64,000 nt of DNA from Cedecea neteri (GTDB taxonomy: Bacteria; Pseudomonadota; Gammaproteobacteria; Enterobacterales; Enterobacteriaceae), in contig NZ_CP009451.1 of NCBI RefSeq assembly GCF_000757825.1, positions 2,728,001-2,792,000 of the forward strand, given 5' to 3'. Both the position numbers and the translations under genes were made by a program. Below, piece by piece: positions 3,113 through 59,336 of this stretch. The notes below the pieces were generated by a model. It was not told the origin of the DNA, did no database searches, and worked only from the letters and a program-made list of their open reading frames with translations. Each line of letters starts with the position of its first letter. Position 1 is the stretch's first letter.

Positions 3113-3775
3113 ATGAAAAAACGCGTCATGATTATCGCCGCCGTCGTGTGTGGCACCTTAGCGGTTTCTGGCTGTACCACTAACCCGTACACCGGTGAAA
3201 GCCAGGCCGGGAAATCAGGGATAGGAGCCGGAATTGGCTCGCTGGTAGGGGCTGGCGTAGGGGTTCTTTCGTCATCGAAGAAAGATCGCGGTAAAGGCGC
3301 TCTGATTGGCGCGGCCGCGGGTGCAGCGCTCGGGGGCGGTGTGGGCTATTACATGGATGTGCAGGAAGCCAAACTGCGCGACAAAATGCGTGGAACCGGC
3401 GTGAGCGTGACCCGCAGCGGCGATAACATCGTGCTGAATATGCCGAATAACGTCACCTTCGACAGCAGTAGCGCCACCCTGAAACCGGCGGGGGCCAATA
3501 CCCTGAGCGGCGTGGCGATGGTACTGAAAGAATATCCAAAAACGGCGGTTAACGTGGTCGGCTATACCGACAGTACCGGCAGCAAAGAGCTGAACATGCG
3601 TCTGTCACAGCAGCGTGCGGACGGCGTAGGCAGCGCGCTGATTACCCAGGGCGTTGACGCGAGCCGTATTCGCACCTCCGGTGCAGGCCCGGCGAATCCT
3701 ATCGCCAGCAACAGCACTGCGGAAGGCAAAGCGCAAAACCGTCGCGTAGAAATCACCCTGAGTCCTTTGGGGTAA
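3113..3775 (+). CDS. yiaD: OmpA-family lipoprotein YiaD
   Basis: Outer-membrane lipoprotein of 220 residues. The signal peptide ends in a lipobox (AVSGC) with the lipidated Cys at residue 21. Next comes a glycine-zipper segment (about 34-85, many G-A-G repeats) that can insert into membranes, then an OmpA-like peptidoglycan-binding domain (about 105-218) with the TFDSSSATL strand, GYTDSTG and NRRVEI signatures. In E. coli YiaD multicopy expression suppresses a bamD defect. It is divergent from bisC with a 110-base promoter region, and is followed by the terminator/repeat array at 3821-4140. Confidence 0.93.
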   Translation: MKKRVMIIAAVVCGTLAVSGCTTNPYTGESQAGKSGIGAGIGSLVGAGVGVLSSSKKDRGKGALIGAAAGAALGGGVGYYMDVQEAKLRDKMRGTGVSVTRSGDNIVLNMPNNVTFDSSSATLKPAGANTLSGVAMVLKEYPKTAVNVVGYTDSTGSKELNMRLSQQRADGVGSALITQGVDASRIRTSGAGPANPIASNSTAEGKAQNRRVEITLSPLG

Positions 3776-3820: not shown

Positions 3821-4140
3821 ACCGGCGCTCCAGGCGCCGGTGAGACTGCTGACAAAGTTCATTGCTCTAAAAAAGTCCGAACCCAGGTCTACTAAAAACA
3901 ATGAATAATGTTCTCTGGTTTGCCCCAAACAGTCGAAAACCACGTTTTTCGGCTGTTTGTCATCAATGTGACCGGCGCTCCAGGCGCCGGTGAGACTGCT
4001 GACAAAGTTCATTGCTCTAAAAAAGTCCGAACCCAGGTCTACTAAAAACAATGAATAATGTTCTCTGGTTTGCCCCAAACAGTCGAAAACCACGTTTTTC
4101 GGCTGTTTGTCATCAATGTGACCGGCGCTCCAGGCGCCGG
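3821..4140. repeat. Tandem array: terminator hairpin alternating with a 130-bp repeat
   Basis: Two exact copies of a 150-bp unit plus a final 20 bp. A 20-base hairpin (ACCGGCGC, loop, GCGCCGG) occurs at 3821-3840, 3971-3990 and 4121-4140; between the hairpins lie two identical 130-bp blocks, 3841-3970 and 3991-4120. The left hairpin is preceded by eight A and the right one followed by four T, so the original object was probably a bidirectional terminator for yiaD (+) and bcsG (-) opened up by the inserted blocks. A related block, in opposite orientation and flanked by a different hairpin, lies at 59186-59311. On the minus strand the array stays open as a 121-codon frame; I do not call it a gene. 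Confidence 0.95.
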
Positions 4141-4164
4141 TTTTCAATCGTCTAAACGCAAACC

Positions 4165-5847
4165 TTATTGCGGATAAGGCACCCAGTCGCCGCCGCTCAG
4201 GCGGACATAAGGCTTATCCTGGTACTTCACCACCACCGCCGTAGAGTTTTCGGAAACCGGGGCGGTTTGCGGCAGGTTGCCGGTCAGCGCGTTCCAGTCG
4301 ACCTGGTCGGCGACAAAGTTCTTGCCGTCTATCGAGCGGGAAACCAGTTCAGAAATCGCCAGATAGCTGCTTGGCTGAGTGATTTCAATGGCATCGCCGC
4401 CGTGTGGCGCCTTCATACCGACGAACTTCACGCCTGCAGGAACGTGGGTGATATCCGGGCTTGGGATATCACGCAGGCCCGACACCTGCATTTTGTCGCC
4501 TTTCAGCGCCGCGCCGTGCTCCGGCACAATCACCACCATCACTTTACGGTTCGACTTCTCAAGCTCGGTCAGGAATGAGTCCAGCTCATCAAACAGCTTC
4601 TGGGCACGTACCTTATAGTCTGCAGGCTTGCTGTTCCCCGGATAGTGGTTGCCATCATGCAGCGGTACCAGGTTGTAGAAGGTGGCGGTACGCGGGTTAA
4701 CCCCGTCGTTCTGCTCACCCTGCAGCCAGCGGTGCAGCACGGCAGTGTCGTCGTAAATTGGCGAATTGTCGAACGCCTGCAGGTCGCTTGGCAGCCCGCT
4801 TTGATCCATCAGAGGCACCTGAATGCCGCCGTACTCACGGACTTCTTTCAGGAAGTCGCCGAACACGCCGTTATGATCCATCATCAGCTGCTGCTTAAAG
4901 CCCAGGCGGGCAAGATCGTCAAACAGATAGCACTGGTTGCCCTCTGGCTCATACAGACCTTTATGCGTGGACTGGCCGCAGCTGGCGCGGAGCAGGCGAA
5001 TAGCCGCCGGGCCGCTGTAAGACGTCGCCGAGTTGAAGTTTTTAAACAGAATATCGAAGTGTTTCCACAGCGGATGCGAACTGAGGCCCACCGCCTCGAT
5101 ATCGGACCAGGAAAGCGAGCAGATGTTAATGATCAGCAGCTCAAAAGGCTGAGCGTCTGCGGGCAGCGCGTCCGGGAATTTGGTCTGCCGTTTAGCTTCG
5201 CTGGCATAGAAGCTGTTCAGCCACGCGGTGATGTTATCGCTGGTCGGTGGTGCCGTTTGCGCCGGAATATCACCGGGAACCGGGGCCAGCGTATTGCCGG
5301 AAGTTGTTGCCCCAGCCGTGCCGCCAGCGTTAACGGAGGCTGTCGTTTGCGACGTCGACGGCAGTAAAGAGATAGCCGGGCCGGCCACGGTTAGCAGGTT
5401 CAGCCACACCAGGATTGCCACGACGAAGACCGTGACGCGCAGCCACTGCGAGACAAACAGCCAGGCAACCAGCAGCACAAACGCCGCGCCGATCATCTGC
5501 CAGTTAATAAAGCGTGTCACCAGGTCGAGAAGGTAGTCTGCGCTAAAGCCGACAACCTGCGAGCCCTGGCTCATGATGCTGTCAGGTCCCGGCAGCCAGG
5601 TATCGTGCCAGAACAGGCCAATCCCTACCGGCAGGGCTATCCAGTTGCGCAGCTTATGAAGTTTGAGCGGCGGCAGCGGGAACAGCAAAAAGGCCAGAAA
5701 GACCAGGTTTGCCAGCGGGTGAAAATTAAGATAGCCGGTCCACAGCAGCCCGAACTTCAACAGGAAGTAGTAGTTCCAGCCACCCAGGCCACGCCAGTAT
5801 TGCAGAAAATAGGCTGGCGACTTTGCCGTTTGAGAGTGATTAGTCAT
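4165..5847 (-). CDS. bcsG: Cellulose phosphoethanolamine transferase BcsG
   Basis: Inner-membrane enzyme that transfers phosphoethanolamine from phosphatidylethanolamine to periplasmic cellulose. 560 residues: several membrane segments in the first 160, a Ser/Thr/Pro/Ala-rich linker (about 165-205), then a periplasmic alkaline-phosphatase-like domain. The nucleophile is Ser278 (TSYSG); Cys243, His397 and the Glu443-His444 pair (PEHG) are the other conserved active-site residues. It is last in the bcsE-bcsF-bcsG operon; its start overlaps the end of bcsF. Its presence indicates modified (pEtN) cellulose rather than plain cellulose. Confidence 0.95.
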
Positions 5848-58706: not shown

Positions 58707-59135
58707 ATGCGTAACTACGATTTATCCCCACTGCTGCGTCAATGGATCGGTTTTGACAAGTTAGCGAACGCGCTCCAGTCCAGCAGCGAAAGCCAGAGCT
58801 TCCCGCCGTATAACATCGAAAAGAGCGACGATAACCATTATCGCATCACATTGGCGCTGGCCGGTTTCCGCCAGGAAGATCTCGATATCGAGCTGGAAGG
58901 CACCCGCCTGAGCGTGAAGGGCACCCCGGTTAAACCGGAAAAAGAGGTCAACTGGCTGCATCAGGGCCTGGTGACTCAGCCGTTTAGCCTGAGCTTCACC
59001 CTGGCCGAGCATATGCAGGTTTCAGGGGCAACGTTCACCAACGGCCTGCTGCATATTGACCTGGTACGCGAAATCCCAGAAGAAATTGCTCCGCAGCGGA
59101 TCGCCATTAGCGAACGCCCCGCGCTTAATAGCTAA
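58707..59135 (+). CDS. ibpB: Small heat-shock protein IbpB
   Basis: Partner of IbpA; co-assembles on aggregates and hands clients to DnaK/ClpB. 142 residues with alpha-crystallin domain (about 35-125), [13 protein letters not shown] motif. Starts [21 protein letters not shown]. Co-transcribed with ibpA from the heat-shock promoter; the ibpB-specific leader may give separate thermal control. Its downstream region contains the second locus of the dispersed repeat. Confidence 0.95.
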
Positions 59136-59158: not shown

Positions 59159-59182
59159 AAGGCCCCTGAAAATGGGGCCTTA
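59159..59182 (+). terminator. First hairpin after ibpB
   Basis: Stem AAGGCCCC / GGGGCCTT with a short loop. Nearly identical to the second hairpin at 59312-59332; the repeat at 59186-59311 lies between them. Confidence 0.75.
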
Positions 59183-59185
59183 ATT

Positions 59186-59311
59186 TTGATGACAAACAGC
59201 CGAAAAACGTGGTTTTCGGCTGTTTGGGGCAAACCAGAGAAAAGTATTCATTGTTTTTATTCGATCGGTGTTCAGCCTTTCAACGTACAGTGAATTTTGC
59301 CAGCAAACCTG
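59186..59311 (+). repeat. Second locus of the terminator-nested repeat (after ibpB)
   Basis: The first 74 bases (59186-59259) match the reverse complement of 3893-3966 (and 4043-4116) at 71 of 74 positions. The remaining 52 bases align without gaps to the rest of the 3.8-kb block, but more weakly. A perfect 13-base inverted repeat (AAACAGCCGAAAA / TTTTCGGCTGTTT) sits at 59192-59224. The element is sandwiched between two near-identical ibpB terminator hairpins, which are different from the yiaD/bcsG hairpin. Confidence 0.92.
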
Positions 59312-59336
59312 AGGCCCCTGAAATGGGGCCTTTTTT
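59312..59336 (+). terminator. Second hairpin after ibpB, with T-run
   Basis: Stem AGGCCCC / GGGGCCT with a loop of six bases and six T after it, a textbook intrinsic terminator. Probably the original ibpB terminator; the copy at 59159 lacks the T-run. Confidence 0.92.

Follow-up and report, generated by a model that had tools for sequence, protein, structure and literature searches.

The window (the whole stretch of 64,000 nucleotides from Cedecea neteri that was analysed) contains a hairpin-element-hairpin arrangement at positions 59,160–59,333, downstream of the ibpB gene (Table 1). The element sits between two near-identical hairpin copies, in agreement with the sequence-only reading of this DNA. 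The original T-tract is no longer found behind the left copy, and terminator-like sites were predicted at 59,311–59,332 and, more weakly, at 59,164–59,177. Base 59,311, at the right boundary of the element, is ambiguous. The 74-base core (59,186–59,259) described in that reading does recur, but the whole element is longer (129 bp), with a right half that is more diverged than the core side. No reading frames of >55 aa overlap the ibpB copy, and the element in the window has no transposase gene. Scanned against Rfam at gathering thresholds, the window yielded no intron family; the sole match was AsdA, the antisense RNA of dnaA (RF02674; 42,140–42,220, minus strand, 87.3 bits).

A BLAST search with the element within the window produced two further matches on the minus strand (3847–3966 and 3997–4116; 84% over 120 bp), with three differences in the first 74 aligned positions, so that the core agreement of 71 out of 74 given earlier was correct. 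This 3.8-kb site lies between two convergent frames, of which the one upstream of the copies encodes 560 aa. The hairpin at this site differs from the ibpB hairpin, and three copies of it are arranged around two elements. The ibpB element had been called inverted relative to the 3.8-kb copies, which is true in map orientation, but with the upstream gene as reference the three window copies share one orientation.

Table 1 Positions of genes, element copies, and hairpins at the two window loci (MITE and TSD as used in the text).
Feature	Position	Strand	Basis
Convergent frame beyond the 3.8-kb site	3113..3775	+	
Third hairpin copy, then T-tract; relatives have one copy	3821..3841	-	
MITE copy 2 of tandem pair	3842..3970	-	
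Second (middle) hairpin copy, 3.8-kb site	3971..3991	-	
MITE copy 1 of tandem pair	3992..4120	-	
First hairpin copy (ACCGGCGCCTGGAGCGCCGGT), 3.8-kb site	4121..4141	-	
560-aa frame upstream of the 3.8-kb copies	4165..5847	-	
ibpB	58707..59135	+	
Left ibpB terminator hairpin copy, TSD copy 1 (AGGCCCCTGAAAATGGGGCCTT)	59160..59181	+	window bases
129-bp MITE copy at ibpB	59182..59310	+	BLAST, boundaries set from ends
Degenerate terminal repeats of the ibpB copy, AATTTTGATGACAAAC / GCCAGCAAACCT	ends of 59182..59310	+	
Terminal repeat, IS1182-right-end-like (TTGATGACAAACAGC) minus decayed first four bases	59186..59200	+	end comparison on copy L010 and window bases
Subterminal internal palindrome of MITE, 14-bp stem, 6-nt loop	59193..59226	+	
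Right ibpB terminator hairpin copy, copy 2 (AGGCCCCTGAAATGGGGCCTTT), then T-tract	59312..59333	+	

Genome-wide copies and empty sites

Using a 90-bp query, 36 matches were found in the whole 4.88-Mb genome, corresponding to 21 element copies (125–129 bp each) and 15 short matches that represent the internal palindrome of the same copies. Flanking direct repeats (≥12 matched bases, 14–34 bp long) are present at 19 of the 21 copies and, judged by eye, are nearly always the local terminator hairpin; their lengths may be off by a base or two because a T or A at the boundary can be assigned to either the element or the target. With shifted flanks as a control, repeats were recovered in 1 of 105 cases for the own copies and in 0 of 218 for the stricter multi-genome set described below. 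The duplicated hairpins agree in sequence within a site and differ between sites, confirming that they are locus-specific. Copies without a hairpin pair had been named as a counter-check, and two of the 21 lack a clean pair: L012, in which the left hairpin is truncated and adjoins other sequence, and L016 (G000:C1:498100-498174), which has a 7-bp CTATAAG repeat without a hairpin. Copy L016 is apparently located just upstream of a start codon. The longest duplication in the own genome (34 bp; copy L020, G000:C1:2131451-2131502) comprises the hairpin together with flanking A and T tracts.

Both window loci were compared with element-free relatives in the genus. At ibpB, all six element-free genomes (G001, G003, G004, G005, G006, and G007) have exactly one hairpin and a T-tract before the next gene, and the insertion is common to the own genome and G002. 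At the 3.8-kb site, one hairpin is present in seven of seven element-free relatives, a reading that covers 110 bases after the gene in each relative. The number of hairpins at empty sites, one or two, had been set beforehand as the condition, and the outcome (one) favors hairpin duplication. Because relatives without the insertion have a single hairpin, the hairpin is a palindromic target-site duplication (TSD). The empty sites and the site-specific duplications thus support the sequence-only reading in that the hairpin does not belong to the element, and the empty sites, the 19 duplicated own copies, and the strict set support its proposal that the element enters terminators, with the hairpin duplicated as a long TSD.

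These comparisons also bear on the idea that hairpin and element are one repeat unit that spread by gene conversion or recombination, or that they form a cis-regulatory RNA, with no transposon involved. The element RNA folds better than shuffled sequences (ibpB copy, z −3.0 for one strand and −2.6 for the other; −2.6 to −4.0 over the four strands folded), and tandem arrays exist, both as this idea would expect. However, it is contradicted by the element-free relatives with one hairpin at the same place, and the hairpins vary between sites while agreeing within each; we therefore regard it as very improbable. The element is short and multicopy, has terminal inverted repeats and no transposase gene, and shows TSDs and empty sites, which together define it as a MITE.

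Searches of the E. coli and plasmid collections with the element sequence gave no match. Of 20 stretches retrieved from records with the exact core, 19 belong to Enterobacteriaceae bacterium RIT693 and one to Cedecea neteri. At least six of 18 own insertion sites are also filled elsewhere (five in RIT693, one in C. neteri; flanks matched on both sides), a lower bound because only exact-core copies were fetched. Sister MITEs of 139–142 bp that share these ends and also have duplicated hairpins occur in the own genus (L046, L048, L049, and L062) and in another genus (L054, L063, and L072 in G034). Tandem hairpin-element arrays, both double and triple, were observed in the own genome (e.g., 3821–4141 of the window; G000:C1:3563852-3564280), and a double array is also present in RIT693 (L161).

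Ends shared with IS1182-family elements

The MITE runs from CAGATTGATGACAAAC to CTTTGTCAGCAGTCTC, which form an imperfect terminal inverted repeat. In copy L010 the terminal repeats (CAGATTGATGACAAA / GAGACTGCTGACAAA) are identical at 12 of 15 positions, and those of other copies, including the ibpB copy, are more degenerate. A 13-mer of the end (GAYTGMTGACAAA) yielded 104 matches, compared to one for the reversed pattern, in the eight genus genomes and one genome of another genus, and a 16-mer (TSAGAYTGMTGACAAA) yielded 204 (hand-summed) compared to three, with matches in 33 of the 295 order genomes. Seventeen of the matches listed start 65–84 bases from a contig start (G186, G220, G303, and G307), as would result if assemblies broke at a longer repeat, and longer stretches were therefore fetched.

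The end consensus CAGAYTGMTGACAAA is common to the MITE and to ISs of 1.54–1.6 kb that belong to the IS1182 family. Following the TGACAAA block, the left end has G and the right end has C in all six ISs compared (four of the six right ends are TGACGAAC or TGACTAAC), and the MITE ends show the same C/G difference, as do those of the YPAL/RU-2 repeats. A subterminal hairpin lies directly inside the IS right end and likewise directly inside the MITE left end, where it is the internal palindrome of Table 1. A full-length element with the same ends and an ORF, which the sequence-only reading had suggested searching for, is present in other genera. G250 contains four IS copies of 1540 bp with these ends, each between exact palindromic repeats (17–23 bp), and the IS of G130 has a transposase frame of 492 codons with Pfam matches to DUF772, DDE_Tnp_1_6, and DDE_Tnp_1. 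The IS transposase scores 493 bits against the NCBI model NF033551 IS1182 (cut-off 270). Relatives of the 492-aa protein were found in 27 of the 295 own-family genomes at E 0.001, some of them distant or fragmentary, and at least one end of this kind lies beside the gene in 16 of the 20 fetched loci with ≥50% identity (read by eye; the exceptions are L095, L097, L111, and L112).

Hairpin duplications of the ISs include those at L090 (24 bp), L091 (21 bp), L096 (17 bp), and an IS of Salinivibrio kushneri strain TGB19 (WP_269587090.1; 20 bp). These ISs resemble the MITE in terminal repeats, subterminal hairpins, and palindromic duplications, whereas the window element has no transposase gene and no such IS was found in any of the eight genus genomes. 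Two distant IS1182 members gave no sign of this behavior: a crude search of the Dinoroseobacter element (L172) recovered neither a terminal repeat nor a duplication, and the Sinorhizobium element (L173) differs in its ends (GGGGCTGTTGAAGAA) and has just an 11-bp repeat. Hairpin duplication is therefore not claimed for the whole IS1182 family.

As a separate observation, all four copies of the IS1182 transposase of G250 (L076–L079) are split into two frames that overlap (204 and 289 aa), which may reflect programmed frameshifting rather than decay. In G130 (L086), a full IS is followed by a duplicated hairpin and then by the start of a second IS.

Palindromic targets and the probable mover

For target statistics, we used a strict set of end pairs at 120–146 or 1480–1610 bp, in which both ends matched at ≥12 of 15 positions and at ≥5 of 6 in TGACAA; identical copies were merged, and a single pair was left out because it lay at the edge of a locus. 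The set keeps just 13 of the 21 own copies, and counts for the own genome are therefore taken from the full 21-copy analysis. Duplications were present in 35 of 41 MITEs (6 without) and in 9 of 14 ISs (17–24 bp; 5 without). In the other five ISs (L092, L093, L094, L117, and L118), one end or both are flanked by a hairpin, but the sequences on the two sides differ, which may be the outcome of recombination between copies. The duplicated sequence forms a stem of ≥5 pairs in 31 of 35 MITEs (4 without) and 9 of 9 ISs, compared to 2.6% and 1.9% of shuffled sequences. In 42 of 44 cases, the centres of dyad and duplication are ≤1.5 nt apart, the dyad having been sought only inside the duplication. 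Given that the duplication is centred on the dyad and forms a stem, both strands seem to be attacked symmetrically about the palindrome. Duplication length and hairpin length correlate only weakly (Spearman 0.24, P 0.12), which speaks against a duplication running exactly from foot to foot of the stem. An outer A/T tract was scored in only 28 of 41 MITEs and 7 of 14 ISs, so that terminators, although frequent, may not be the sole targets.

The matching ends make the IS1182 family the likely source of the transposase that moves the MITE. In the host, the search for an IS1182 transposase with PF13751 was negative in the eight genus genomes (control: 1 of 14), as was that with a 487-aa query (0 of 8, without a control of its own; the related 492-aa query produced the matches given above). 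No facing end pair at IS distance occurs among the genus end matches listed. Because no IS1182 transposase is found in these eight genomes, the host partner is inferred from other genera, and our claim is that the element is ‘moved by’, not ‘co-resident with’, such an IS; the host element would be an orphan MITE left by a lost or passing IS. Based on these comparisons, we consider it highly probable that the element is a YPAL-type MITE moved in trans by a hairpin-duplicating subgroup of IS1182.

A partner acting in trans had been proposed in the sequence-only reading, with RAYT, IS200-like, and DDE enzymes as candidates, and it remains the natural assumption; the DDE option fits IS1182, but Y1_Tnp (RAYT/IS200) was not found in any of the eight genus genomes (control: 5 of 14). 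A RAYT or IS200/IS605-type (Y1, HUH) transposase that recognizes REP-like hairpins would agree with the subterminal hairpins at the element ends. Y1 elements are not known to leave a target duplication, whereas 19 of the 21 copies have one, and with no Y1 gene found in the eight genus genomes this mover was rejected, its probability being negligible. Terminator preference would also fit debris of a class C group II intron-like retroelement, since class C group II introns insert next to terminators. These introns are not known to make a target duplication, however, the window scan returned no intron family, the element contains no intron domain, and it has the terminal inverted repeats of a DDE IS, leaving this origin equally far-fetched.

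A transposase of another family that duplicates inverted repeats is the third candidate. IS1630 of Mycoplasma, an IS30-type element, makes the same kind of inverted-repeat duplication, and an IS30-like gene is present in one genus genome, G007, the only one among the three of nine genomes with HTH_38 above cut-off. However, a stop codon breaks the reading frame of this gene, the sole HTH_38 match in the own genome falls below the cut-off (24.1 bits), and the MITE ends match those of IS1182-family ISs with the same target behavior; an IS30-type mover thus appears unlikely.

For the IS1182-type mover, the transposase would bind ends of the CAGAYTGMTGACAAA form (followed by G at the IS left end and C at the right) and would recognize a short G/C-rich palindrome, often a Rho-independent terminator. 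Attack on the extruded hairpin would join the two 3' ends symmetrically on either side of the dyad, and gap repair would then leave one whole hairpin on each side. New hairpins could in turn serve as targets or recombine, which would build tandem arrays. The T-tract stays with the outer hairpin, which suggests that termination probably survives insertion, and the transcript would gain about 150 nt of structured RNA. Going further, we lean toward the view that an IS1182 subgroup distributed across this order reads the structure of DNA and not its sequence, attacking extruded terminator hairpins from both sides and duplicating them, and that repeats such as YPAL, the Cedecea-like MITEs, and others are its parasites. 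If true, each insertion supplies a spare terminator and does almost no harm to the host gene. Insertions of this kind account for double and triple terminators behind genes such as ibpB and add structured 3' ends to transcripts, and they caution against reading duplicated terminators as regulation.

Several parts of this behavior have precedents, here taken from the sections of the cited papers that were covered, and the suggestion of an undescribed system is not supported: YPAL/RU-2 repeats have the same ends and dyad duplications, and terminator targeting by IS1272 has been published. YPAL/RU-2 are repeats of Yersinia and Erwinia carotovora of about 168 and 130 bp. Their termini, TCAGACTGCTGACAAAC and TGAGGTTATTGACAAAG, are those of the MITE, with the same left/right difference (Table 1b, PMC2759123), and, by an eye count, one matches TSAGAYTGMTGACAAA at all 16 positions and the other at 13 of 16. 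Like the MITE, they are intergenic, form structured RNA, and reportedly show variable duplications at dyads (3–26 bp, spanning or adjoining the dyad; PMC2229807); in the MITE these are 14–34 bp at 19 of 21 own copies and dyad-centred in 42 of 44 strict-set cases. The two differ in length, and the likeness rests on ends and reported duplications, hence ‘YPAL-type’ rather than ‘a YPAL’.

IS1272 (IS1182 family, Staphylococcus) and TnSha1 target stem-loops or terminators regardless of sequence (PMC5678879, PMC4923244). Unlike the MITE, IS1272 replaces or partly deletes the hairpin without duplication (PMC5678879, PMC4923244), and its authors draw hairpin duplication as an alternative pathway (legend of their Fig. 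13). The mechanism proposed above, if true, would be this pathway, drawn and not reported for IS1272, and the empty sites provide natural evidence for a transposition outcome that duplicates a whole structured target. Palindrome targeting by certain IS1182 members was noted by Siguier 2015 (cited in PMC4923244 and PMC5678879), and MITEPye1 of Paracoccus yeei and ISMac2-linked MITEs have been attributed to IS1182-family ISs (PMC11578231, PMC3852290), although these have 4-bp or no duplications and are not at duplicated hairpins. IS1182-linked MITEs and palindrome targeting by IS1182 are therefore already in print. No link between YPAL-type repeats and IS1182 was found in the titles and abstracts listed from the open-licence literature, and this link seems new and testable. 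The mover of YPAL was left open in the covered parts of two 2007 papers, and the IS1182 subgroup offers a testable mover for YPAL-type enterobacterial repeats, which lack one in the literature covered. Among the IS ends compared, the YPAL 3' end (TTATTGACAAAGTGC) is closest to the left end of the L096 IS, a lead to the partner of YPAL.
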